NCBI GenBank assembly: GCA_945903645.1
Contig: CAMDOM010000022.1
Coordinates: 1 to 45,080, forward strand
DNA length: 45,080 bases
Source of the DNA: Chryseobacterium gleum
GTDB taxonomy: Bacteria; Bacteroidota; Bacteroidia; UBA10329
Reading direction: 5' to 3'
The position numbers were made by a program, and so were the translations under genes. Below are positions 2,826 to 42,649 of the stretch, one piece after another (position 1 is the stretch's first letter; every line of letters begins with the position of its first letter). The notes beneath the pieces were generated by a model that saw only the letters and a program-made list of their open reading frames with translations, had not been told where the DNA came from and ran no database searches.

Positions 2826-3220
2826 TGAAAAACACGAGCATCGGTTTCCTTTTCCTAATTATTTGCGGGCTGGGCTTCGCGGCCTGCGAGAGCATTCCTG
2901 GAGAAGGAGGCACTTCTACCATCACAGGCAAAGTTTTCGTGCGCGAATATTCGTCCGTAGGCAATTTGCTTGGCGAATATTATGGTGAGGAAGAACGTGT
3001 GTATATCGTGTATGGAAGCGGCAACACCTTCGATGATGATACCCGAACCAGTTTCGATGGTTCTTACAAGTTTCAATACCTCAACAAAGGCAACTACCGC
3101 GTATTCGCCTACTCGAGATGCGATACTTGCGCATCGGGGCAACTAGCGGTTATTCAAGATGTAGAAATCACATCGAGCAACGAAACCCTCGAACTGGAAG
3201 ACCTTATTGTGCGCAAGTAA
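2825..3220 (+). CDS. Small lipoprotein with a carboxypeptidase-regulatory-like fold
   Basis: This 131-residue protein has an N-terminal hydrophobic segment ending in the lipobox-like GFAAC (Cys about residue 21), so it should be a membrane-anchored lipoprotein. The rest (TITGKVFVREY, FDGSYKFQYLNKGNYRVFAY) resembles a single transthyretin-like carboxypeptidase-regulatory domain: a conserved G-x-V, then DGSYxFxxLxxGxYxVxAY. A CxxC pair lies at DTCAS/RCDTC. Its ATG overlaps the preceding stop and its TAA overlaps the next ATG, implying translational coupling. The function is unknown; these domains often give structural support to surface proteins. Confidence 0.7.
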   Translation: MKNTSIGFLFLIICGLGFAACESIPGEGGTSTITGKVFVREYSSVGNLLGEYYGEEERVYIVYGSGNTFDDDTRTSFDGSYKFQYLNKGNYRVFAYSRCDTCASGQLAVIQDVEITSSNETLELEDLIVRK

Positions 3221-4011
3221 TGGCCATGGAATCTGAGCATAGCGCACTTGCGGTAACCCAACAATTTCGACCCATCACCTTGGCCGAAATGGATGGCGTG
3301 CAATTGCTCAATCGCATGGATACCAAGTATGTGATGCCTATTGGCAAACTAGCGCCTTTTCTGGAAATGGTGAAAAACGGCTACCGCATATTGTACACCA
3401 ATCCGCTGCGCTATACCGACTACGATTCGCTCTACTTCGATACCCCCGACTTTCAACTCTATGCTATGCACCACCGCGGCAAAGCAGGCAGATACAAGGT
3501 AAGATGCCGTGGCTATGCCGATACCAAGATGTTTTTTCTCGAAATAAAACACAAGAACAACAAGGGGCGAACTGATAAATCGCGAAGCCAACGCTTGGGC
3601 ATCGAGCAGCAGCTATCGTCCGAGTCATTGGCGTTTATTGCCCGCAAAACAACGCTAAACCCACGCATACTAGAGGCCAAGTTGCAAGTGCAGTTTTCGC
3701 GCATGACGCTGGTAAACAATGCAGAAAATGAACGGCTTACCATCGACTTTAACCTCAGTTTTACTGGCAATGGCACCACCTATGCCATGCCGGGCATTGT
3801 GGTGGTAGAAATAAAGCAAAGCAGTTTTTCGTCTAAAAGTGATGCCATTGCAGCGCTTCGCGAATTGCGCGTGCGAGAAAGCAACATGAGTAAATACTGC
3901 ATTGGCGCGGCCAAAATATATCCTCACCTGCGCAGCAATAATTTTAAAGAAGTGATACACACCATAACCAAACTACAAAACAATGGAACTGCTGGGAACC
4001 AAGCTGCTTAA
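3220..4011 (+). CDS. VTC-domain protein (polyphosphate polymerase-like)
   Basis: The 263-residue protein matches the VTC domain family, whose eukaryotic members synthesise inorganic polyphosphate from ATP in a basic tunnel of the triphosphate tunnel metalloenzyme type. Visible motifs, in order, are RMDTKYVMP, YDSLYFDTPDF, GRYKVRCRGY, FFLEIKHKNNKGRTDKSR, RLTIDFNLSF and VVVEIKQ. These are the alternating basic and acidic strands expected to line the tunnel. There is no membrane segment, so it should act in the cytosol, probably held at the membrane by the DUF4956 protein encoded next. I chose the ATG at 3220, overlapping the previous stop (alternative ATG at 3226); a longer open frame upstream only shadows the lipoprotein gene. 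The 3' end overlaps the next gene by 29 nt. Confidence 0.85.
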   Translation: MAMESEHSALAVTQQFRPITLAEMDGVQLLNRMDTKYVMPIGKLAPFLEMVKNGYRILYTNPLRYTDYDSLYFDTPDFQLYAMHHRGKAGRYKVRCRGYADTKMFFLEIKHKNNKGRTDKSRSQRLGIEQQLSSESLAFIARKTTLNPRILEAKLQVQFSRMTLVNNAENERLTIDFNLSFTGNGTTYAMPGIVVVEIKQSSFSSKSDAIAALRELRVRESNMSKYCIGAAKIYPHLRSNNFKEVIHTITKLQNNGTAGNQAA

Positions 4012-23687: not shown

Positions 23688-24269
23688 TCATCTGACATAC
23701 CGCTTGCCGTTTCGGGGCTTCTGGTTCTCCAGGAAATCGGACACTGCAGCATCGGTTTTCTGTCTCTTTACTTTGGATGTCTGCGTCAGCAATGAACAAA
23801 GGCCCTCGATCCTCTCCAGTGTCAAATCATCCTGTCGTCTCGCATAATGCAGACGGACAACACGTGACGCATTGTTATAAAGGGTAATTTCGATAACGTG
23901 CCTGTCAGAATGATGTTCGTGCCTCAGCTCGCGGGCACCGTAAAGTTCAATGTAGTAAAGTGCGAGTGCGACAATGCGCTTTGCCCCAAAAGTGCTGTCT
24001 TCCATATCTCTAGCAAAATGGGCATTCCAAGGCTGGTTGGTACATTGCCATTGATTGCTCAGGAAGTTCTTGAGCTGCACGGACATGCTATGGTCGGTGC
24101 AGCTAGAATCAGCGTGGCATAGCAATAGGTCAACGGCCTTTGTTTCTATGGCTTCTTGCTCTCGCGTACTGGACGTTAAGTTAATTCCACGCAGATGCAA
24201 GAACGTTACCGCCCAGAAAACAACCACCAAAAAGGCTGTGAAATAGGTTATTATGGTGTGCCGCTCCAT
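23688..24269 (-). CDS. Single-span membrane protein of unknown function
   Basis: The 193-residue protein has one N-terminal membrane helix (IITYFTAFLVVVFWAVTFL) and an extracytoplasmic domain with several cysteines (LLLCHADSSCTDHS, NQWQCTNQPW) and a basic C-terminus (KPRNGKRYVR). It is the last gene of the inserted operon, and its start overlaps the end of the polytopic membrane protein by 19 nt. No family is recognised. Its coupling to the upstream gene suggests a partner role in the same envelope process. Confidence 0.55.
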   Translation of the reverse strand: MERHTIITYFTAFLVVVFWAVTFLHLRGINLTSSTREQEAIETKAVDLLLCHADSSCTDHSMSVQLKNFLSNQWQCTNQPWNAHFARDMEDSTFGAKRIVALALYYIELYGARELRHEHHSDRHVIEITLYNNASRVVRLHYARRQDDLTLERIEGLCSLLTQTSKVKRQKTDAAVSDFLENQKPRNGKRYVR

Positions 24270-25741
24270 GCTGCTGCGTTCATTGTAAGTTTGGTCAACG
24301 TGTCATTCTTCAATCTTGCCTCATCAATTCCAAAATAACGCTCATATGCTCGGTTCCAACTTTGCATGCTCCTGTTCGGAAGAATTTCAGGTGGATAAAA
24401 GTTCGTGGTTGGAGGAGAAGATAAAGGCTCGAACACAGCCTCGGTCCATTCCGAGCCGTCCTTCGCCAAAGCGAGAATCCTATAGCGTTCTCGCATCTTT
24501 GTCTTGTAGCGTTGATATGTGCCATCAGTATATTCTCTGCGGATGTTGTTGATATTGTTCTCTGATAGCACTATTGATGACAGCGCAACTATACCAAGCA
24601 GCGCAATGAAGACTCGGCTTAAGCGAGGGTGTGTCCCGATTCGTTCGGTCATTCCGATTCTATCCGAGACATATGCAAAAACAGCGATAATCCATATTTG
24701 AAAGCCATAAAGCACACTGGCAAAGACCCTTTCGGGAATTCCAGTAAACGTTCCCATCGCCACATAGTAGGCCCATGTCATAAGCCACAACACTGCCAGA
24801 CCGGCAAACGCAATTCCAAAAGCTCGCCAAGGCGAAATGGATTTCAGCAACCCAAACCCGCGGGGCACTGAAATGAGTAGCATCGATACCACTGCCAAAG
24901 GTATAAGTATCGTATTCGTGGTCAACCATTGCCCCACAAAGAATATAAGGTCAGAAGCACTAGCATAGGGTATGCCCAACAGATAGCTCATGTTGCGTTC
25001 TAAATGCTGTTCGGCCATCCTGTTATGAATGCCGGGACAGGTGATGAAGAAAAGGATGCTTGAAAGGCCGATGACCATCAGCGGTAACAGCCTTCTCCAT
25101 CTTTCCACTCCTCCACTCCAACCATAAACGGCCATGATCAGCAAAAGCACTCCGTTCAGCACCAGGAACATCTCGTTCATCCCTAAGGAACAAATCAGCC
25201 CGAATGCGGCCACAATGAACCACACTAATTGCTGAGAACGCTGGTAACGGACCAATGCGCCTATCCACAACAGGGTGAATGTCCAAGGCCACATATAGAC
25301 GAAGCTGCTAATCATCCAATAGAGGTCGTGGGGCAGGGAAGGTGAAATTGCCATGTGACACGTGATGAAGAGCAGCGAGACCAGCAGCGCATCGCCATTT
25401 TGCCAAGTGCCGTTTGCAACAGTGGCAATGAAGAATGCCCCTGCCCCCGCCAGCAGCACGATTCCCAGCAAAGGCATCAGCCAATACCCCTCTATTGCGC
25501 CAAAGGCCAGCGGATTCAAGGCATGAAGCAGATTGGTGAAATATCGCCCATCATACTCTTGCAGAAGCTTGACAACAGAATTGACTACGCCCATGTCGCG
25601 CGGCCCATAGGAAATGGACAGGTCCTCAGCGTTCGGAAAGCTGAACCATGCGCCTATAGTCAACCAGCACATGCACCAGATTATGAACAACCATAGCGGT
25701 AACTTAGATAAATGAGCGTACAAACTATGGACTACAGCCAT
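24251..25741 (-). CDS. Polytopic membrane protein, DUF6056 / GT-C-like
   Basis: The 496-residue protein has about 10-11 membrane segments. After the first comes an acidic loop (FPNAEDLSISYGPRDMG) and then YDGRYFTNLLHALNPL, the pattern of a periplasmic first loop with an acidic residue followed by a G-R-Y-F-(S/T)-N motif that I associate with DUF6056 and related GT-C-fold glycosyltransferase-like proteins. A further conserved-looking segment is LGMNEMFLVLNGVLL. The C-terminal 110 residues are soluble. It probably transfers or moves a polyprenol-linked sugar. It lies within the operon of SGNH and radical SAM genes, 23 bp after the preceding gene. Confidence 0.55.
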   Translation of the reverse strand: MAVVHSLYAHLSKLPLWLFIIWCMCWLTIGAWFSFPNAEDLSISYGPRDMGVVNSVVKLLQEYDGRYFTNLLHALNPLAFGAIEGYWLMPLLGIVLLAGAGAFFIATVANGTWQNGDALLVSLLFITCHMAISPSLPHDLYWMISSFVYMWPWTFTLLWIGALVRYQRSQQLVWFIVAAFGLICSLGMNEMFLVLNGVLLLIMAVYGWSGGVERWRRLLPLMVIGLSSILFFITCPGIHNRMAEQHLERNMSYLLGIPYASASDLIFFVGQWLTTNTILIPLAVVSMLLISVPRGFGLLKSISPWRAFGIAFAGLAVLWLMTWAYYVAMGTFTGIPERVFASVLYGFQIWIIAVFAYVSDRIGMTERIGTHPRLSRVFIALLGIVALSSIVLSENNINNIRREYTDGTYQRYKTKMRERYRILALAKDGSEWTEAVFEPLSSPPTTNFYPPEILPNRSMQSWNRAYERYFGIDEARLKNDTLTKLTMNAAAWSGTP

Positions 25742-25764
25742 TTGGGGGGAATAAAGTAGGCAGA

Positions 25765-27030
25765 CTATTGAACTGGCAGGGAAGGAGTCAGTAAAGAGAA
25801 GTGCTCATCATAGACAATGTTGGCCATTTTAGCATAACCCACTGGTGTGAAGTGGCGATCGGTGGGCCAATATAGTTCTTCGATATTGGGCGCATGCATA
25901 ATTGGTGCAAATGTGTCAGAAAATTTGATTCGGCTGTCTAGAGAATCCAGCGCTTCGACCAGTTGTGGATAAGGCCCTGCATCGCTCGATAATTCATGTT
26001 GAATGGGGTGCAGTACAACATGCATTACAATATCATGCTGAATTGTATATGGCAGCACGACATCGTTCAAAAGATTGCTCAAATCTTTAAGGGATTCCTG
26101 TCTAGTGCGATAGTCCTCATCGGTAGTCATTAGATTCATCCCTCTGCCCATTGGGCCATGCACAAATAGTCGACTCACGTGGCTTATGGCATAGATTGGT
26201 TCCCACCAAGGCCCTTTTCTGTAACTGAGCCCTCCATTTGGAAGAAAGCGTTCAAGACCTCCACGCATCTGGAGGTCATTTAGGTCGGTCGTATTAATCA
26301 TAAAGACCACATGCCTTATGTCAAACCTGTCTCTTAGTTTCCGAAGCATCATCCAATCGAAAAATGGGTCGTTGCCGCTCACTCCGGCATTCATCACAGC
26401 ATAAGTGGTGTCGTGTTGTTCGATCAGATGTTGCAGCAGTGCAGGGAAGGTGCTGTCTGAAGGTGCTCCTGCTCCCTCCGCGAACGAATCACCCAATATC
26501 AGAATAACCTTGCGATTATTAGGGGGCAGTTCGCCCCTGAGTCCAATAGAATTACAGGCAAAGTCCGGATAATACTTATCGCTTGAGGCATTTCCCCTCA
26601 TTTCAAACGGATGGAACTCAAGGGTGTGAAGACTCTTTCTGTTTGGCAGTAAGTCGAACAGCAAGTTGTCTACAGCAAAAGACCTGTATAGCGACCCATA
26701 GCCTCCAGTGTGCTGCTCGCTGTAGGTCAAATGGTTCCGCAGTACGAATCGGAACGTCAGCTCACCCATGAAAAGGACGCATAGCGTAGAAAGTAATGCC
26801 AGAGCCAAGTTGCCCGTACGTTTTCCACCCCTTCGAACGACCATGACACAAACAACAGCCGGAATCATGTATGTGAGTACGGTGGTTCCGAAATCGCACG
26901 ATCCAAGAAAGAGGGAAAGATAAATGACGGAAACATAAAAGAAGACTCCGATAAATGCAATCACTTTCAATGGTCGCCAAATTGGGCTGGAAAGGAATGG
27001 CCTTCGCATCAGGTCAGACATCCTTGGCAC
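25765..27030 (-). CDS. Membrane-anchored SGNH/GDSL-family hydrolase or acyltransferase (1)
   Basis: The 421-residue protein has three N-terminal membrane helices (residues about 20-95) and then an SGNH-fold domain. Block I is ILGDSFAEGAG (Ser182), block II NAGVSGNDP, block III FMINTTDLND, and block V WPTDRHFTPVGY (Asp391, His393). The catalytic triad and oxyanion residues are therefore in place. Such membrane-anchored SGNH domains often add or remove acetyl groups on exported polysaccharides. The start overlaps the radical SAM gene by 17 nt. It is only distantly similar to the other SGNH gene (28465-29799). The substrate is unknown. Confidence 0.75.
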   Translation of the reverse strand: MPRMSDLMRRPFLSSPIWRPLKVIAFIGVFFYVSVIYLSLFLGSCDFGTTVLTYMIPAVVCVMVVRRGGKRTGNLALALLSTLCVLFMGELTFRFVLRNHLTYSEQHTGGYGSLYRSFAVDNLLFDLLPNRKSLHTLEFHPFEMRGNASSDKYYPDFACNSIGLRGELPPNNRKVILILGDSFAEGAGAPSDSTFPALLQHLIEQHDTTYAVMNAGVSGNDPFFDWMMLRKLRDRFDIRHVVFMINTTDLNDLQMRGGLERFLPNGGLSYRKGPWWEPIYAISHVSRLFVHGPMGRGMNLMTTDEDYRTRQESLKDLSNLLNDVVLPYTIQHDIVMHVVLHPIQHELSSDAGPYPQLVEALDSLDSRIKFSDTFAPIMHAPNIEELYWPTDRHFTPVGYAKMANIVYDEHFSLLTPSLPVQ

Positions 27031-28441
27031 CTTTGAGTCCCGAGATTACAAACTTACCGTCCCAAGCCAAATAGCGCATCAATCCAAGTCCCATGCTTAA
27101 TACTTCGCCAACATGTTCTGGTATATTCTTCAGATTCCAAAGCACAAAGCCTGGACGGAGATAGAATCTGCGATAGAACCGTTTCTTTCTCACAGTAAAA
27201 TCATCATAGATTGAAGGGTCTTTCCATTGGTTCCTGTAAGGATAAATAGAGAAGTCAATTCGATTGCTGAGTTGGTTGAAAAGAGGTGTTCCAGGATACG
27301 GTGTCAAAGGATTGAACGATGCGAAGTTCAAGCGTGCATCAATGGCAAAATCCAGTGTGAGTTGAAAATCAGTGTCCGTCTCATCGGGATGACCGGACAT
27401 GAAGAATGCTGCTGATTCGATACCAGCCTTTCTGCACAGATGCAGTACCTGCATAGCGCTACTGACATCCATGCTCTTGTGGTAAAGATCAAGCATCCGT
27501 TGGCTGCCCGATTCCATGCCGAAGTAAATCCGTTTGCAGCCAGCCGCCTTCATTCGGGCAAGCAAATCAGCGTCCAGATTGTCTGTCCTGCTTAGGCAGG
27601 CCCATTCCACATTGACCTGTTCTTTCACCATCAGCGCGCATATCTCCACGACTCTTTGTCGGTTTATGGTGAAGGTGTCGTCTATGAAACGTATAGATTT
27701 GATACTGAATAGACGCTTCCATTCGCTTATTTCTGTCACGATTCTTTGAGGAGACAGAGCGGTCAGTTTAGTTCCATAGGATTTAACGCAGTAGTTGCAT
27801 TGATAAGGACAGCCACGGGCGGTCTGAATCATGCCGAACGGTCGGGCCAAAAGGGGTTCGTGATAGCTTCCTTCGGGCAGCAGGTCGTAGGCGGGCATGG
27901 GAAGCGCATTCGGGTCGGGAATACGGTTACCGCTTCCCTGAATGATCACCTCATCACCGATGCGTCTAGCAATCCCAGAAACCTCGTCCATTTCCATTGT
28001 TCCGTACAACGCATCATACAGGTCAGAGAATATTAGCTCCGGTTCTCCAAGAATAACGAAGTCTGCGAGCGAGTTCTTAAGAGTTTCAAGTGGAAAGTGA
28101 GTGGCGTAATGACCAAACAGGACTACAATAGGGTCAGGGAATTCTAATCGGATGTCTCGTAAGTAATCTATATCTTCCTGAAAACATTCGAATCCAGTTA
28201 TGGATACTATGATATTGGGACCGAACTGTGCAATGGTGTCATGTATATCTTTTGAACTGGCGTTCTCTGCAATCGCATCAAGAAGCATAATCTCGGAATC
28301 CTTCCAATCGCGCGCCACAGCCCCGATGGAAATGAGCTCAAGGGGAGGTAAGAGGCTCTCGGGCGAGATATAGGAACACATATATCGCCTAGTAATCTTC
28401 TCCCTGTTGGGAAGATTGAGCAAAAGGATTTTTTTGACCAT
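27014..28441 (-). CDS. B12-binding-domain radical SAM enzyme
   Basis: The 475-residue protein has an N-terminal Rossmann-like cobalamin-binding-type domain (residues 1-145; SIGAVARDWKDSEIMLLDA, VLFGHYATHFPLE, VILGEPELIF) without the DxHxxG base-off motif. It is followed by a radical SAM barrel with the cluster motif CPYQCNYC (Cys211, 215, 218) and IYFGMESGSQRMLDLYHK, SAAFFMSGHPDET and FNPLTPYPGTPLF. The class includes methyltransferases and C-C or C-P bond-forming enzymes that modify lipids, glycans and antibiotics. Lying between two SGNH hydrolase genes, it probably modifies an envelope molecule. It is the second gene of the inserted operon. Confidence 0.85.
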   Translation of the reverse strand: MVKKILLLNLPNREKITRRYMCSYISPESLLPPLELISIGAVARDWKDSEIMLLDAIAENASSKDIHDTIAQFGPNIIVSITGFECFQEDIDYLRDIRLEFPDPIVVLFGHYATHFPLETLKNSLADFVILGEPELIFSDLYDALYGTMEMDEVSGIARRIGDEVIIQGSGNRIPDPNALPMPAYDLLPEGSYHEPLLARPFGMIQTARGCPYQCNYCVKSYGTKLTALSPQRIVTEISEWKRLFSIKSIRFIDDTFTINRQRVVEICALMVKEQVNVEWACLSRTDNLDADLLARMKAAGCKRIYFGMESGSQRMLDLYHKSMDVSSAMQVLHLCRKAGIESAAFFMSGHPDETDTDFQLTLDFAIDARLNFASFNPLTPYPGTPLFNQLSNRIDFSIYPYRNQWKDPSIYDDFTVRKKRFYRRFYLRPGFVLWNLKNIPEHVGEVLSMGLGLMRYLAWDGKFVISGLKGAKDV

Positions 28442-28464
28442 TGAACAAATTCCTTTTTTAGTGG

Positions 28465-29799
28465 TTAAAAGTAAGGCTTTATCTGTCCATTCTGCAACTT
28501 ATTTTGGATAAGGCTGTCCAAAAAATTCGCGAACTTAAGGCTGCCCTCATTGTTGAAATGGCAGTCTCCTTTTGGAAAATGTAGTCGGGCATCCAACCCA
28601 ACTGGTAAGTGATAGGGTCGTCCTTCAAAAAGCCGAAGAAAGGCCAGGCGGTCATCGACTGTTACTTCTTGCATACTCTCTCCGCTAATGTTTACAACAG
28701 GAATAATCGTTGTAATGCAAGGTACTTTTGACATTTCGACCGTCCTGTAAAATCGGTCCATGTAAGTTTTTGTTATCTCAACACGTTCTGACTGATCAAT
28801 CCTCCGTGTATTTTCATACTGCTCAACTACGTCTTGCTTAACCAGTCCTAATCCATAGAGACTGCCCCACAACAGACTCGAAATTGAACTGGTTCTGCAG
28901 AGATTCCCGAAGGAAGTGGAGCGTGGAATGGAGACCAAAGACAAGTAGTACTCATAGGCTTCTTGAGCTACTAAGTAGATCCCCTCGGGACTACTGTCGA
29001 AAAAGCCTGCATTTGTCATGTGCTCGTGTGGCTTCTCAAAATGCGGCTCTCTTGGGAACGGCATCAGGTCGTTGGCAGGATAGAAACAGAGTACCACCAG
29101 ATCGGGCATCAGTATGGGCATATACTTTTGGGCAATAGCAGCGTATTGAGCCGGGTCCGTTCCCGGAATTCCAGCACTATATACCATATAACCCCTTGCC
29201 AAAAGGCGGTCGGTAAAGCTGTTGAAATGCGGGCTGGCAGTCATCCCATACACAAAGGAATCACCAATGACCAATATTCTTGGCCTGTCAGTAACGTGCC
29301 TTTTGAATGGAATGCTACGAAAACCTTCTTTGTTGTATGGTCTTCGTAAGGATTCAATTAGGACGCGTTCCCATTCGTTCCTTGGTCCATTGAGTTTTAT
29401 ACGGTCATGTACCCCCACAAATTCGGTGTCCCACTCCTCATTGCCGAAAGTTGTCGAAAACCACTTTCTGACAGTGGATTGGCCGTTGAGCAGTTCGTGA
29501 GCAACACCATATATCTGATCCCAATTGTCGGCACTTTTGAGATGGCCATCGAGATTCTGCCTGAAAGCACGGTCATCGGCATGCTCCATTAAAGAGGCCA
29601 CCGAATCTGTTATCCATGAACTGAACTTGTAGATTCCTGCTTCATCTGTAGAGAAATTCTTATAAACTATTAGGCTATCAACAGGCTCAAATCCTTCCAA
29701 TTTTCTGAAACTGCCCGGTCGATGCCCCGAGATGCGAAGTCCCGCCTCAACCGCCAGGAGCGTTAGAATAGTGGCGGCCATGACCAATATCCAACGCAT
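28465..29799 (-). CDS. Membrane-anchored SGNH/GDSL-family hydrolase or acyltransferase (2)
   Basis: The 444-residue protein has one N-terminal membrane helix (MRWILVMAATILTLLAVEAG) and an exported SGNH domain. The first 170 residues after the helix are family-variable. Block I is LVIGDSFVYGM, block II AGIPGTDPAQY, block III CFYPANDLMPF, and block V GDCHFNNEGSLKFA, so the Asp-x-His pair is intact. It is the first gene of the inserted operon (order: SGNH, radical SAM, SGNH, polytopic protein, single-span protein). A role in O-acyl modification of a surface glycan is inferred from this setting. Confidence 0.75.
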   Translation of the reverse strand: MRWILVMAATILTLLAVEAGLRISGHRPGSFRKLEGFEPVDSLIVYKNFSTDEAGIYKFSSWITDSVASLMEHADDRAFRQNLDGHLKSADNWDQIYGVAHELLNGQSTVRKWFSTTFGNEEWDTEFVGVHDRIKLNGPRNEWERVLIESLRRPYNKEGFRSIPFKRHVTDRPRILVIGDSFVYGMTASPHFNSFTDRLLARGYMVYSAGIPGTDPAQYAAIAQKYMPILMPDLVVLCFYPANDLMPFPREPHFEKPHEHMTNAGFFDSSPEGIYLVAQEAYEYYLSLVSIPRSTSFGNLCRTSSISSLLWGSLYGLGLVKQDVVEQYENTRRIDQSERVEITKTYMDRFYRTVEMSKVPCITTIIPVVNISGESMQEVTVDDRLAFLRLFEGRPYHLPVGLDARLHFPKGDCHFNNEGSLKFANFLDSLIQNKLQNGQIKPYF

Positions 29800-36172: not shown

Positions 36173-37993
36173 TTATTCTGTCAGGGTGATGACTTCGTAG
36201 CGAATATCGTCTACATAAATATCATGTTCGCCAGTAGTGTACGGATACACAATCCAAACATCTGTGGCCAGTTCAGAACTAGGCAATTCGGCCACCACGC
36301 GCACTGCCGTCCACGTGTTTTTTTCCAAAATCTGGTCGCCACAACCGATGTAATCATGCCCATAGTGCCGCTCATTTTGGTTAAACGAATAAGCAAGCGT
36401 TAGAGCGGGCATCTCTTCTTCTGACCATGCCATAAACGTAGCCAACACAATCTTTTTCCCAGCCACACCCATCTCCGAAAACGGAATTCCAATAGTAGCA
36501 CCATACGGATTGGCAGCACTTATTTTGGACGAATGCGTGCCAGAATAGGCCAACTCAGAAGTACGCCCTTGTGTTCCCCATTTCACCGTTACTACTTCCA
36601 AGTCAGTAGAAACTTCCCATCGGCTTGCAATGAGTTCCTCTGCGGGAATCAACTCTGGTTTGGCTTCGCGATAAAATATTCCATCGTACTTCTTTCCAGT
36701 TTGAAGAAAGATTTGCCAGTAGCGCTCTTGGTTCATATCAATCCAATGCAGAATAAACTTGTTGTATTGGTAGGATTGAATAAGATTTAGGGGAATAGCC
36801 GCCAGAGACACCAACACCACAATCACTTTACCCCAAACAGGGAGTGTATGAATAAGATAGGCCATCAATAGGATGAAAAAAGGAAGGTATTCCACCAATG
36901 CCCGCATGCCAAAACTGCACCCATAATACCACGACCACCACGAAGAAATAATGTAAATCGCTCCACCGAGAAACACCAACAACCAAGCTGCCGCAGCTTT
37001 CGAACGAAGGAACAATGCAACCAAACCCACCGATGCCAGAATTGCCCAAGGATAGTACACGAAAAAACCTTTCTTATAACTGAACAGCACATTGATGATT
37101 TGCGGATCACGGAAATTGAATCCCTCTCCGCTATACGACCATACCAAAGGTTGCCCCACTTGTATCCAATACATCAACGGTTGAAACGAAACAATGGCCA
37201 CTGCAACAGCAAGAGGAATAATAACCTTGGTGCTCATCAACACTTTTTTAGCAAACGCAAAGCAGGGCTTCCATCCACCAGCAATAAAAGGAAAGCTGAG
37301 AACTATAACTGCATTTGATGGACGCACCAAAACGATTAGCCCTAATACAGCTGCCAACAGCCCAAGGTTTTTTCGCGTTGTTTCCGTAATGGATTTGTCC
37401 GCAACATAGATAAAGGCAGAGAAGAGAAAGAAGCTGTACACATGCGACATGGCGGGTTCCATCACCGTGTAATAAAACAGCCCCGTGCCAGCAAATCCTC
37501 CTAAAGTGGCCCACGAAATGCTACTCCAACCGATACCTTTCTTATGAATATACTTGCTCAATAAAAACAGCCCAGCAAGAACATAAAACAGCGCGCCAAG
37601 CATTATTCCAATATGAAAAGGTTCGGAATATCCATCCACAGGAACCTTCATAATCCAAGCAGCCAAGCAGGATAGCAGAAAGAAAGGAAGCATTAGCAAC
37701 GCGGATCCTACATAGTATTTATTCACCCTTCCCGCATCAGTCATGACCGTAAAATCTGCTGCGCCACCTCCAAAATACGTAGCGCTGTAGCTCGAAATAA
37801 CCTGTTCCCAATCGAAAGAGCGCTCAAGGAATGCGGCCACCAAATAGCCATAATATCCTTGGGCATCGGCATGAATTATTCCATACATAGCCAGATTGTG
37901 CCATTCTCTTTTCAGCTCGAAAAAGATAGCAAGCGCCCCGCAACACAGAAGCGTAACCCACCAAAGCCATTTGTTGGAACCGTTATCGCGCAT
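36173..37993 (-). CDS. GT-C-like membrane protein with C-terminal beta-sandwich domain (paralogue 2)
   Basis: The 606-residue protein has about 11-12 membrane helices. The first periplasmic loop carries IHADAQGYYGYLVAAF, an acidic motif typical of GT-C glycosyltransferases of the ArnT/PMT kind. Shared landmarks with the next gene upstream are GRVNKYYVGSALLMLPFF, MEPAMSHVYSFF, VRPSNAVIVL, WSYSGEGFNFRDP and SWWSWYYGCSFGMRALVEY. The C-terminal 170 residues are exported and end in a jelly-roll-like domain (YSGTHSSKISAANPYG ... VDDIRYEVI), possibly sugar-binding. Its start overlaps the preceding gene by 11 nt. It is the last gene of the five-gene glycosyltransferase operon. Confidence 0.7.
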   Translation of the reverse strand: MRDNGSNKWLWWVTLLCCGALAIFFELKREWHNLAMYGIIHADAQGYYGYLVAAFLERSFDWEQVISSYSATYFGGGAADFTVMTDAGRVNKYYVGSALLMLPFFLLSCLAAWIMKVPVDGYSEPFHIGIMLGALFYVLAGLFLLSKYIHKKGIGWSSISWATLGGFAGTGLFYYTVMEPAMSHVYSFFLFSAFIYVADKSITETTRKNLGLLAAVLGLIVLVRPSNAVIVLSFPFIAGGWKPCFAFAKKVLMSTKVIIPLAVAVAIVSFQPLMYWIQVGQPLVWSYSGEGFNFRDPQIINVLFSYKKGFFVYYPWAILASVGLVALFLRSKAAAAWLLVFLGGAIYIISSWWSWYYGCSFGMRALVEYLPFFILLMAYLIHTLPVWGKVIVVLVSLAAIPLNLIQSYQYNKFILHWIDMNQERYWQIFLQTGKKYDGIFYREAKPELIPAEELIASRWEVSTDLEVVTVKWGTQGRTSELAYSGTHSSKISAANPYGATIGIPFSEMGVAGKKIVLATFMAWSEEEMPALTLAYSFNQNERHYGHDYIGCGDQILEKNTWTAVRVVAELPSSELATDVWIVYPYTTGEHDIYVDDIRYEVITLTE

Positions 37994-39770
37994 GGATGAA
38001 CGTTATTTCCATATCATCCAAACATACCTCATGTTGGTCTTCTTTCATAATGTATAACACAAACGTATCACTTGCATGGCGCACAGCTCCGCAAAAAAAC
38101 ACAGCCGAACATTTATTCCACTCAGATCCAAAACTAAACTGCGGTCGCAGCGGTTTTTTGCGCCAGAAATAAGCCGCCTCAGTAGAATCTTGAATGGTAC
38201 ACACAAACGAAACATCAGACAGCCACGAGCTAGAATTTATCATGCCGCTAATACGAACAACGTTGGCGCTAACGGGAATGTCTTTTGCCTTAATGCGAAG
38301 CGTGATGCCAAAGTTGTCTTGCTTCAAGCAGCTTGACTTTGTGCCAGAGTACGCTACCGAATCCGAAATTTGCTGTTCGCCACCCCAATCATGCGATGCT
38401 TCCATGTCATGAATAAGTGTCGTGCTATCCATTCCTGCATAACTATCCTGACCTAAGTTTCCTGGATAATACCATTGCAAATCCTCGCCAGTGCGTAAAA
38501 AAAGACTGCGATATTTGATACGGTCTATGCCATCAAAAGGCAAAATGTGATGCACGTATTGATAGGTTTGAACGCCTTGAATACTAACGCACATCAACCC
38601 CAAAAACACAACAAACGATGGCCTAAGAATTCCCCATCCAAACTGAATTAAGTGTACAAGGCCGATAGCAAAAAATGGGATATACTCAATAAATGCCCTG
38701 TGTCCGAAGGCACCGCCATAGTACCACATCCACCAAGAAGAGATAACCCAAGTTATGGCCAAAAGGAACAAAAGCAATGCATTTGCCTGCGCTATATTTC
38801 GCTTGCGCATAACGAAAATGCCAATCACAGCTAGCAGAAGTATGGGTGCATACACAAAGAGTCCTCTACGATAACTAAATAGTACATTAAAAAACTCAGG
38901 CGAGAGAAAATTGAACCCTTCTCCTTGATATGACCAAAACATGGGTGCTCCCACTTGAATGAGATACAGAATGGGTTGTAGGGCCACAATTCCAACAAAA
39001 ACAACAACGGATAGGAACAACACCACTGGTTTCTGAATCAACCGTTCTATACTAATTACAATAGGAAAAACCCCACTAGCAACTACTGGTAGTGCCAAAA
39101 CAACCAGGCCATTTGTAGGACGAATTAGCGCAACCAACCCCAATGCAAATGCAGCCAATATCCATAACCGCTCTTGCTGGCAGATTATAGCTCTTGCCGA
39201 GAAATAGAGAAATGCCGACACCGAAAAAAATGAATACACATGTGACATTGAGGGTTCATACAGGGCATAGAATAGCAAATTGGTGCCAAAAACCAGCATA
39301 AGTAAAGCAGGAAGAATAGCTTTCCTTTTATATCCCAACAATTGAAGAAATAGCTGCAGAAATAGCAAGCCTAGCGATAGATAAAACAGCGCAGCAACGC
39401 CAATGGCAATTTGAAATGGGGGCGAAAAGCCATCCAACACATGTCCAGTGAAACTCGCTACGGCTAGTGCTACCCCGAAGAATGGTGCCATTAGCAAGGC
39501 AGTGCCTACGAAATACTTGTTCACATTACCTTTTTCGGTGACATGGAAAAAATGAACCCATTCGCCCTCAGGATAGTGTAAGTTATCTATATTCTGTACA
39601 AACCCATAGCTAAAATCGTGAAAAATGAACGCAGCCGGCAAATAGCTGTAGTAGCCTTTTCCATCTGTAATAATGAGTGGCTCTTCGACAATGGTTTGCC
39701 AACGCGTTTGAGAGGCAAATACAAGCAGGCCAATGCCCACCAAAAGTGCTAATGCTCCATTTCGCAGCAC
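37983..39770 (-). CDS. GT-C-like membrane protein with C-terminal beta-sandwich domain (paralogue 1)
   Basis: The 595-residue protein is a tandem paralogue of the following gene. It has a long N-terminal membrane part with TDGKGYYSYLPAAFIFHD in the first loop, then GNVNKYFVGTALLMAPFF, YEPSMSHVYSFFSVSAF, IRPTNGLVVLALP, WSYQGEGFNFLSPEFF and SSWWMWYYGGAFGHRAFIEY. The C-terminal 150 residues form an exported domain (SVAYSGTKSSCLKQDNFG ... CLDDMEITFI). It probably transfers a sugar from a polyprenyl phosphate donor to an exported acceptor. It lies 4 bp after the GT2 gene that could make such a donor. Confidence 0.7.
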   Translation of the reverse strand: MLRNGALALLVGIGLLVFASQTRWQTIVEEPLIITDGKGYYSYLPAAFIFHDFSYGFVQNIDNLHYPEGEWVHFFHVTEKGNVNKYFVGTALLMAPFFGVALAVASFTGHVLDGFSPPFQIAIGVAALFYLSLGLLFLQLFLQLLGYKRKAILPALLMLVFGTNLLFYALYEPSMSHVYSFFSVSAFLYFSARAIICQQERLWILAAFALGLVALIRPTNGLVVLALPVVASGVFPIVISIERLIQKPVVLFLSVVVFVGIVALQPILYLIQVGAPMFWSYQGEGFNFLSPEFFNVLFSYRRGLFVYAPILLLAVIGIFVMRKRNIAQANALLLFLLAITWVISSWWMWYYGGAFGHRAFIEYIPFFAIGLVHLIQFGWGILRPSFVVFLGLMCVSIQGVQTYQYVHHILPFDGIDRIKYRSLFLRTGEDLQWYYPGNLGQDSYAGMDSTTLIHDMEASHDWGGEQQISDSVAYSGTKSSCLKQDNFGITLRIKAKDIPVSANVVRISGMINSSSWLSDVSFVCTIQDSTEAAYFWRKKPLRPQFSFGSEWNKCSAVFFCGAVRHASDTFVLYIMKEDQHEVCLDDMEITFIHAR

Positions 39771-39774
39771 GCGC

Positions 39775-40497
39775 TTATTTGCTAACGAGGTTGTACTTCA
39801 AAATGCAATAGATAGCACGGAAGCCATCGCGCCATCCTATTTTTTTTCCATCCTCATAGGTACGTCCGTAATACGAAATGCCCACTTCGTAGATGCGCAC
39901 TTTGGGTATGCGTGCAATTTTGGCGGTTACCTCTGGTTCAAATCCAAAGCGTTTCTCTTTCAGCGCTAAGGATTTTACCATTTTGGCATCAAACAGCTTG
40001 TAGCATGTTTCCATGTCTGTAAGATTCAAATTGGTGAACATATTGCTCAGTGCAGTAAGAAACTTGTTGCCTATGGTATGCCAAAAAAACAGAATGCGGT
40101 GCGGGTTTCCTCCCATAAATCGCGAACCGTACACAATATCTGCATTGCCTTCAACTATCGGTTTCAAGAGGTCGTTGTATTCGCGCGGGTCATATTCCAA
40201 ATCGGCATCTTGAATTAGAATATAATCTCCAGTAGCAAGTTCGATGCCTTTGTGCAATGCGGCTCCTTTACCCATATTTACTGGCTGCGAGAAGAAACGA
40301 ATATCCAATTCAGTGTTTTGCGCCATGTAGCGATTCACCGCTTCTACGGTGTCATCCTTCGAGCAGTCGTTAACTATGATAAGTTCTTTGGTAATGCCAT
40401 TCATCAATTGAACCGCTTTGATGCGATCCAAAATCATGTGAATAGTTCTTCCTTCGTTGTATGCAGGTATAACGATGGAAAGTTTAGTAATGCTCAT
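39775..40497 (-). CDS. GT2 family polyprenol-phosphate sugar transferase (DPM1-like)
   Basis: The 240-residue soluble enzyme of the dolichol-phosphate-mannose-synthase type has [53 protein letters not shown], the metal-binding [10 protein letters not shown] and YGSRFMGGN, and [12 protein letters not shown]. It lacks C-terminal membrane helices. It should load a nucleotide sugar onto a polyprenyl phosphate, giving the donor for the GT-C proteins encoded on either side. Its start overlaps the end of the upstream membrane gene by 4 nt. Confidence 0.85.
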
Positions 40498-41714
40498 TGA
40501 CCGGCTGTTGAGGGGATTTTGCAGGGAATTGATAATGTTGTGGAGTCTGTTTCGATTGTCTCTTCATTCATAAGTAGACCATCAAGCTGTTCTGCTTCGT
40601 CCATTATGGCGGCTTTACGATACATCGCCTTGTTGGAATTAACAATTACCAAAGTGGGGAGCAGTGCAATAAGAACCATCATTCCCTTCCTGTAGAGCTG
40701 TGACACTTGCCCATAACCATTGAATAAACCTTCGGACACAGCCATAATGATAAATGGAGTTATAAAAACGAGCGTTCGCGCTGGAGGTATTGTGCCCGAA
40801 AGGCCAACATATGCGGCACTTATGGCAATCATAAATAGCGCTTGGGTCATAAAAACGCCTTTCCATCCCTTTTTTAACCAAATGGCAATAAGAGCCAACG
40901 GAATGAATAGGGCAGCAATTAGGGGATCAAAATAAGTCAGAGTTTCCGTGGCATGATTGGCAATGCGTTCAAGGGTAAAATTTCCCAAATCATAGTTGCG
41001 AATAATCCAGTTGTCGGTAAGTGAAGTAATTGGATTGTGCCGAAGTACTGGCAGATATAAAAGTGCGGTGAGTCCTAACGACAACAGGATGTTTATTCCA
41101 TTCAGGGTAAAAAGTTTTTTGTCGCGCTGCATTAGGTATTGAACCACTATGGCAAGCACAAATCCTAAAAAAGGCAGTAAAAACGTAGGAACGGCTAAAA
41201 ACCCAAACGCAATCGACACCACAAATGCAATCGACCATCTTATGGTATTGGGTGTATTGTTCGAGATTTGACGTAGCGCGTAAAACGCAGTTAGCGACAA
41301 CAGCGCTACAAGTGCATATCCTCGCGACACAGACCCAAAGTAGAGCCCTCCCAACGAAGCAACCCAAACGCCAGCAGAGAAAAAAGCAAAGCGAGCACTT
41401 TGCGCATCGAGCACCAATTTAAAAACTATCAGTATGGAGGCTAACGATGCGAGGAGTGAGGTTAGTCGAATTGCCACTGTGTCTGATAGCGGCAATTGCA
41501 AAAAAAACGAAGACAATAGCGAGTTTAGAATATGATTATTTGGAGAAGAATAGTCCGTTGCCGCAACTTTCCATCCGTTTCCCATAAAGTGTTGTAATGA
41601 AAAAAGTTCATCACCCGATAGCGGCAATTGCGTGATAAACCACATGCGATTGGCAAAAGCAATCAACAGCAACAAAGTAACTCCTAATCCAAGACGTCTT
41701 TTTCCTCCTATCAC
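40494..41714 (-). CDS. GT39/ArnT-like membrane glycosyltransferase
   Basis: The 406-residue protein has about 10 membrane segments. The first loop carries the acidic pair in [14 protein letters not shown] and then [18 protein letters not shown], the D-E ... (P/N)-H pattern of ArnT/GT39-type enzymes; [20 protein letters not shown] also fits. The C-terminus is short and soluble. It probably transfers a sugar from a polyprenol carrier on the periplasmic side. The 4-nt overlaps with both neighbours imply a single transcript and coupled translation. Confidence 0.7.
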
Positions 41715-42649
41715 GTGGTTTTAATTTGATGTGATTCTTCTCGAATTAAATACAAGGGACGCTGCTTCACATTTGTGCTAATTCTACCTATGTATTCTCC
41801 TATTATTCCAACGGCAATAAGTTGAATTCCTCCGATAAAAAGCACACTCAAAATTAGTGATGTCCACCCTGGCTCGTACACTTTCCAAACAAACCGCGAC
41901 CAAAGGGCGTAAATCATGAGCACAAAGGAAATGAAAGACACGATGAATCCCGATATGGTAGCCACTTTGAGGGGAAAATTAGAAAACGAGGTAATTCCAT
42001 CCAAAGCGAATCCAATCATTTTGCGGTAGGTGTACCCCGTATCGCCCGATTGACGAGCAGCTCTAACATAAGGCACAGAAGCCTGATTGAATCCCATCCA
42101 CGCAATCTGCCCACGAAGAAATTTTTCGCGTTCCGGCATTTGACGCAACACTTCAACTACTCTTCGCGAAACGATTCTAAAATCGCCAGTATCTACTGGT
42201 ATTTGCACCGCAGTTATGCGCGTCATTATTCTGTAAAAAATGCTTGCGGTCCAGCGTTTTGCGGCACTTTCGCCTTCACGACTACTGCGTTGGGCATACA
42301 CTACATCATTGCCATCGGCCATCTTTTGTAGCATGTCAGGTATGAGTTCTGGCGGATCTTGTAGGTCGCAATCAATAATGACAACACAGTCTCCCGAAGC
42401 ATGGTCCAGCCCAGCTGTTACGGCCACTTGATGCCCGAAATTCCGGCTTAAATCGATGTAACTCACATGCGAGTCAGTAGCGGTCAACCCTTTAATAATT
42501 GCCAAACTATTGTCATAGCTTCCATCATTCACAAACAACAATTGGTAATCTTCCAATTGCAACCCAGCCATCACCGCAGAAAGGCGGTGATGGATAGAGG
42601 CCAAATTCCCCTCTTCGTTGAATACTGGAATAATGGTACTAACACGCAT
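41711..42649 (-). CDS. GT2 family GtrB-like bactoprenol glycosyltransferase
   Basis: The 312-residue protein has a GT2 catalytic domain (STIIPVFNEEGNLASIHHRL, FVNDGSYDNSLAII, NFGHQVAVTAGLDHASGD, the metal motif IIDCDLQDPPELI, VYAQRSSREGES, and DTGDFRIVSRRVVEVL). Two C-terminal membrane helices (ISGFIVSFISFVLMIYAL and LSVLFIGGIQLIAVGIIGEY) complete it. This is the GtrB/DPM architecture that transfers glucose or a similar sugar to undecaprenyl phosphate. It is the first gene of the five-gene operon 42649-36173. Confidence 0.88.
   Translation of the reverse strand: MRVSTIIPVFNEEGNLASIHHRLSAVMAGLQLEDYQLLFVNDGSYDNSLAIIKGLTATDSHVSYIDLSRNFGHQVAVTAGLDHASGDCVVIIDCDLQDPPELIPDMLQKMADGNDVVYAQRSSREGESAAKRWTASIFYRIMTRITAVQIPVDTGDFRIVSRRVVEVLRQMPEREKFLRGQIAWMGFNQASVPYVRAARQSGDTGYTYRKMIGFALDGITSFSNFPLKVATISGFIVSFISFVLMIYALWSRFVWKVYEPGWTSLILSVLFIGGIQLIAVGIIGEYIGRISTNVKQRPLYLIREESHQIKTT

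Follow-up and report, generated by a model that had tools for sequence, protein, structure and literature searches.

Non-methylating cobalamin radical S-adenosylmethionine (SAM) enzymes catalyse ring formation and rearrangement, according to PMC13142503, and PMC5461906 describes AprD4, the radical SAM diol-dehydratase of apramycin biosynthesis, as taking a hydroxyl off a sugar. BchE, an oxidative cyclase with B12-family radical SAM architecture, and HpnJ, a hopanoid enzyme, are likewise non-methylating. Among membrane glycosyltransferases, the GT-C fold is shared by the polyprenyl-sugar enzymes oligosaccharyltransferase (OST)/PglB, AftB, ALG12, PMT, ArnT and PimE, and DUF6056 (PF19528) is a family of unknown function. 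Here we describe an operon of five genes at positions 23688–29799 of a 45,080-nt stretch of DNA (the window) from a freshwater Bacteroidota genome (G000), which joins distant relatives of these radical SAM enzymes and membrane proteins with two SGNH/GDSL enzymes. The reading that we favour, at about even odds, is a split pathway for the synthesis of an unusual sugar and its attachment to a surface glycan, of which this operon would supply one half. No description of the gene set was found in the literature searched.

The five open reading frames (ORFs), all on the minus strand, follow each other in the order SGNHa (28465–29799), rSAM-A (27014–28441), SGNHb (25765–27030), GT-C (24251–25741) and a gene for a small protein (23688–24269), with spacings of 23, −17, 23 and −19 nt, rSAM-A overlapping SGNHb by 17 nt and GT-C overlapping the small-protein gene by 19 nt. 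Both the coordinates and the view that the overlaps mark a single unit had been put forward from the letters of the DNA alone (hereafter the sequence-only reading), and both were confirmed. Scans for promoters and terminators turned up no excess of sites over shuffled sequence (9 versus 11.2 and 6 versus 7.2, respectively). Horizontal acquisition, which had also been suggested, found no backing in composition, as the G+C content (0.46–0.49) and the G+C content at third codon positions (0.48–0.56) of the block lie inside or near the range of the flanking genes; furthermore, the presence of rSAM-A in two of the nine same-genus genomes can be explained by loss no less than by gain. The family- and order-level samples consisted of these same nine genomes and added nothing.

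The presumed other half of the pathway lies on a different contig of the same genome, C17, around a second radical SAM gene, rSAM-B, whose product is 68% identical to the copy of locus L012. Its B12-binding domain is clear (PF02310, 6.7e-21, 74.8 bits versus a cut-off of 32.1), and on this match rSAM-B is assigned to the cobalamin-binding radical SAM class. Downstream of rSAM-B are genes for a Gfo/Idh/MocA protein, a GT2 glycosyltransferase and a third SGNH protein (SGNHc), and upstream is a gene for an OlsC/LpxO-like hydroxylase, which adjoins rSAM-B in G000 and likewise in genomes G004 and G049, the last of these retaining the GT2 gene as well. The surroundings encode a carbamoyltransferase, membrane proteins of the UbiA and LPG-synthase types, SPASM radical SAM proteins and the N-acetyl sugar amidotransferase WbuX, a marker of sugar loci that scores above its cut-off (220.5 versus 203.2 bits) and supports the split-pathway reading. 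The top curated model for the Gfo/Idh/MocA protein is UDP-GlcNAc 3-dehydrogenase (NF040723). The rSAM-B locus of G000 is bordered by three adjacent SPASM/twitch-type radical SAM genes (L094:1-4062), as is also seen in G004. Beyond the locus, at about 35.9–42.0 kb of C17 (L136:10940-16968), six PhyH-type dioxygenase-like genes stand in a run, and four such proteins are encoded at the end of locus L013.

In a class-level sample of 395 genomes, rSAM-A was present in three, namely G000, G004 and G049, at E ≤ 1e-130, a cut that is natural in this sample, the third-best match being 1.2e-170 and the fourth 7.1e-71; when the threshold was relaxed to 1e-60, for rSAM-A only, 10 of the 395 genomes were retained. 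rSAM-B was present in the same three genomes. As the two genes sit on different contigs in G000 and G049, linkage alone cannot account for their co-occurrence. A species-level scan with rSAM-A, covering 84,980 species genomes, yielded 23 loci, seven of which (L012–L018) are ortholog loci with 49–65% identity. With all sources pooled, and with G004 and the L012 genome, which are one and the same, counted once, rSAM-A occurs in nine distinct genomes and rSAM-B in eight of them. In L012, L013 and L018 rSAM-B immediately precedes rSAM-A or the tandem copy of it, and in L014, L015 and L016 it is about 7–9 kb away. The pairwise identities of the two proteins are correlated over seven genomes (r 0.93), a value that common descent alone could give. 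The Acidobacteria and Terriglobia loci L022–L028 have between three and five radical SAM genes of the B12 family within at most 21 kb.

The two halves are physically united in L018, where a single row contains SGNHa, three GT-C/small-protein pairs and three radical SAM genes. In this row the window half is represented by orthologs of SGNHa, rSAM-A, GT-C and the small protein, and the C17 half by orthologs of SGNHc, rSAM-B, Gfo/Idh and GT2. In L013 the rSAM-A gene overlaps the GT-C gene directly, and on contig 38 of G004 much of the C17 set is accompanied by rSAM-A and by a distant SGNHb relative (27% over 378 residues). It is because of the C17 genes, contig 38 of G004, the row in L018 and the neighbours of rSAM-B in G049 that the window operon is read as half of a split pathway.

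In such a pathway, the Gfo/Idh/MocA dehydrogenase and the adjacent GT2, both encoded on the other contig, would prepare the sugar, probably on polyprenyl phosphate, and rSAM-A and rSAM-B would alter its carbon skeleton while it is still in the cytoplasm, through C-methylation, deoxygenation or a rearrangement of the ring. Flipping would bring the lipid-linked sugar to the periplasm, where GT-C with its anchored NTF2-like partner would transfer it and the SGNH enzymes would add or remove O-acyl groups. What was observed is the linkage of the genes, their co-occurrence, the folds and the catalytic blocks; the substrates, the order of the steps and the reaction itself we infer from what is known of the families. 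A narrower version, namely that a two-enzyme module, its B12 domain being degenerate in rSAM-A and intact in rSAM-B, acts as a pair on a lipid-linked sugar to give a residue of the surface glycan that is carbon-branched, deoxy or ring-rearranged, delivered by a DUF6056-type GT-C in complex with a dedicated NTF2-like subunit, appears doubtful to us. If correct, it would reveal a sugar chemistry that is new for bacterial surfaces, with radical SAM enzymes of the B12 family as the builders of a surface sugar, and it would give the DUF6056 group, a widespread membrane family of unknown function, its first role together with a partner subunit. The co-occurrence of unlinked rSAM-A and rSAM-B makes them a direct, testable enzyme pair. 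The system is real, rare and coherent, of a general kind that is known (surface-glycan tailoring) and with an unusual set of enzymes, and we consider it neither ordinary nor, as yet, categorically new.

The product of rSAM-A (475 aa) matches PF04055 (1.2e-21, 78.1 bits versus a cut-off of 29.5) and carries the CxxxCxxC motif, the cysteines of which (C211, C215 and C218) are invariant across the nine aligned sequences; it is assigned on these features to the radical SAM superfamily. The sequence-only reading had labelled it cobalamin-type. This label is indirect for the window copy, which gives no match to the B12-binding domain PF02310 at E ≤ 1, though seven of the nine members of its alignment (A3) do match (best 8.9e-8), and its N-terminal B12-binding-like domain appears to have diverged. 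Other B12 enzymes, methionine synthase and methylmalonyl-CoA mutase, are encoded in the genome, which speaks for the split-pathway reading. Against the curated NCBIfam models, rSAM-A remained far below the cut-offs of BchE (166.1 versus 481 bits), HpnJ (142.7 versus 578) and AprD4 (111.5 versus 500). BchE is the top curated model for both radical SAM proteins and HpnJ the third-best for rSAM-A and the second-best for rSAM-B, which scores 115–153 bits against BchE and HpnJ, compared with 143–166 bits for rSAM-A. By sequence, AprD4 is the closest solved relative of rSAM-A (5.6e-32). The C-methylation that had been offered as an example of the chemistry was not borne out, the nearest models including those of a cyclase, a hopanoid enzyme and a diol-dehydratase; as non-methylating cobalamin radical SAM enzymes form or rearrange rings and AprD4 dehydroxylates a sugar, C-methylation is just one option.

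The appearance of HpnJ, of the hopanoid model HpnR and of a ladderane-type model among the nearest curated models of both rSAM-A and rSAM-B bears on a different pathway, in which the radical SAM pair would modify a membrane lipid similar to a hopanoid, a sphingolipid or an ornithine lipid and the glycosyl and SGNH enzymes would finish its head group. The OlsC/LpxO-like hydroxylase gene beside rSAM-B in three genomes and the UbiA and LPG_synthase_TM genes of the C17 locus are in line with this explanation. However, the HpnJ, HpnR and ladderane-type scores are all far under their cut-offs, the loci are dominated by sugar enzymes (Gfo/Idh, GT2, GT-C and WbuX) and AprD4, the nearest solved relative of rSAM-A, acts on a sugar, and we consider a lipid pathway rather unlikely. 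The split glycan pathway agrees in part with the sequence-only reading, which had left the choice between glycan and lipid open and had proposed a modification unit for either; the unit is operon-like, and genes related to those of the unit are again found side by side in the glycan-type clusters of L018 and L013.

Two membrane-anchored SGNH enzymes with intact triads had been read from the DNA, and the catalytic blocks were indeed found in both, GDSFVYG and DCHFNNEG in SGNHa (444 aa) and GDSFAEG and DRHFTPVG in SGNHb (421 aa). These are blocks I (GDS) and V (DxxH) of the SGNH/GDSL family. The description of SGNHb had to be corrected, as a simple hydropathy count predicts three spans in its N-terminal region, and both proteins fall under the PF13472 cut-off of 32.9 bits, SGNHa with 18.0 bits (E 0.0042) and SGNHb narrowly with 32.3 bits (1.8e-7). 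The SGNHa ortholog in L018 is 46% identical, N243 and D244 being invariant between the two, and SGNHa is a probable glycan O-acyl esterase or transferase. For SGNHb the best curated model is the LA_2490 family SGNH esterase (NF047475, 5.2e-8), yet the score of 32.6 bits is far from the cut-off of 325. O-acetylation by an MBOAT/SGNH pair was also considered and rejected, as no MBOAT match was found among the five proteins and the scanned neighbouring proteins of the window, to which the search was confined.

Of 365 genomes, 19 contain relatives of SGNHa, and the window's genome is one of these. Several of their neighbourhoods we take, from the sequences, to be glycan clusters. One cluster recurs in other Bacteroidia (L125, L127, L128, L129, L130, L131 and L133) and encodes a relative of SGNHa, several proteins of ∼330–370 aa and, in most cases, a membrane protein that we call TMTC-like from its sequence rather than from a family match. 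Likewise, the ∼330–370 aa proteins of L125 and L130 are, from their sequences, presumably GT2-like and nucleotide-sugar-dehydrogenase-like.

The fourth protein of the operon (GT-C, 496 aa) has no Pfam match and does not reach the PF19528 cut-off, and the profile of its close group of seven members (the window, L010 twice, L013 and L018 three times) has no sequence match in the PDB. An AlphaFold model built from the seven sequences reached a predicted template modelling score (pTM) of 0.81. Foldseek comparison of this model gave weak E-values (best 1.9e-3), and in a second structural alignment the best 46 rows were GT-C enzymes or PIG-U, a related subunit, with Z-scores of 6.8–13.3, followed by a next value of 4.4. 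By the fold of the model, the protein is thus predicted to be a GT-C glycosyltransferase. It shares this fold with the polyprenyl-sugar enzymes (Z up to 13.3 over 349 residues) as well as a conserved pair of acidic residues in the first loop, presumably with the same role, whereas sequence identity to them is just 5–14%; a polyprenyl-sugar donor is a prediction for the window protein. The name DUF6056-like holds at the profile level only: PF19528 is matched by two of the seven members of the close group and by eight of the ten members of a more distant comparison group, and the profiles of the two groups match each other with a probability of 100 (E 2.3e-47, 453 columns), which makes the window protein a remote relative of this family. 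The DUF6056 group is present in 33 of the 395 class genomes at E ≤ 1e-20, and its neighbourhoods were inspected in 22 of these (G000, G001 and 20 others).

In all seven members of the close group, the gene after GT-C has the same orientation and encodes a protein of 161–203 aa with an N-terminal hydrophobic stretch (193 aa in the window). A leave-one-out test, in which profiles were run against 135 similarly sized proteins, placed five of the seven small proteins first, the window copy with E 1.1e-6, and the two from L010 only 17th and 37th; the family is thus supported for five of the seven. The model of the small protein has a pTM of 0.58 and most of the structural rows listed are NTF2-like, with Z-scores of 5.1–7.1, which are weak matches and weakly suggest a protein with one span and an NTF2-like, probably periplasmic domain. 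From the constant pairing in the close group we infer its role as a partner of GT-C. Unlike in the close group, no comparable partner was seen beside the 21 more distant GT-C genes examined, and the three small neighbours read on the same strand did not resemble it. No description of the GT-C/small-protein pair was found in the literature searched.

GT-C and the SGNH enzymes could also be seen as late tailoring or export-side steps of a natural-product cluster formed by the two loci, whose product would be a secreted small molecule. Many cobalamin radical SAM enzymes belong to natural-product pathways, as stated in PMC13331322, and genes for carbamoyltransferases, PhyH proteins and aminotransferases recur here, but no non-ribosomal peptide synthetase, polyketide synthase or precursor of a ribosomally synthesized and post-translationally modified peptide was present among the scanned locus proteins, which covered part of the ORFs, and the GT-C fold and the SGNH anchors point to the use of a lipid-linked sugar in the periplasm. 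A small-molecule product therefore seems improbable. We find it harder still to credit that the radical SAM enzymes and GT-C modify exported proteins in the manner of an oligosaccharyltransferase. OST subunits are the nearest GT-C folds, protein O-mannosyltransferases are also among the rows and the TMTC-like proteins recur near relatives; on the other hand, similarity in GT-C fold does not reveal the acceptor, and the operon encodes no obvious substrate protein.

Several observations weigh against the split glycan pathway. The Gfo/Idh protein scores only 151.6 bits against the cut-off of 450 of the UDP-GlcNAc 3-dehydrogenase model. Two of the three genomes in which rSAM-A and rSAM-B co-occur are of the same genus, and the sequences of G000 and G004 are in both query alignments, which leaves G049 as the only independent case in the class sample; the L017 genome, the sole exception among the nine, has rSAM-A without rSAM-B. 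Six of the nine rSAM-A genomes gave no match to the GT-C family, namely G004 and G049 at E ≤ 1e-20 and the L014–L017 genomes at E ≤ 1e-10, a threshold at which the L012 genome, identical with G004, was likewise without a match. GT-C is therefore not an obligatory partner; it is an accessory of some genomes, and in others its place may be taken by another protein, perhaps by the large Pfam-less membrane proteins of L014–L017. Conversely, most of the GT-C relatives examined are without rSAM-A, and both rSAM-A and GT-C are absent from all 12 fetched SGNHa-relative neighbourhoods outside the window genome. The exact order of the five genes was seen in no other genome or locus examined and is so far unique to the window. 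That the genes occur elsewhere only separately, the outcome named beforehand as fatal to the sequence-only reading, is thus true in part and not as a whole, as L018 and L013 group the families. An operon of five functionally unrelated genes joined by rearrangement, which the unique order and the many relatives lacking rSAM-A would fit, is very improbable given that the same families are combined, in different orders, in L018 and L013 and that rSAM-A and rSAM-B co-occur even when unlinked.

Elsewhere in the window, a second glycan-type cluster extends over 36173–42649 on the minus strand. It encodes a pair of paralogous membrane proteins, which share 33% identity and come near the LA_3751/LA_3752 putative glycosyltransferase model, as well as an AglJ-like GT2, a protein of 406 aa of unknown function and a PgfS/ArnC-like GT2, and it may be a source of lipid-linked sugar for GT-C. 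Towards the start of the window are genes for a Kinase-PolyVal protein (334–993, 1.4e-63) and a VTC-domain protein (3118–4011, 1.3e-25).

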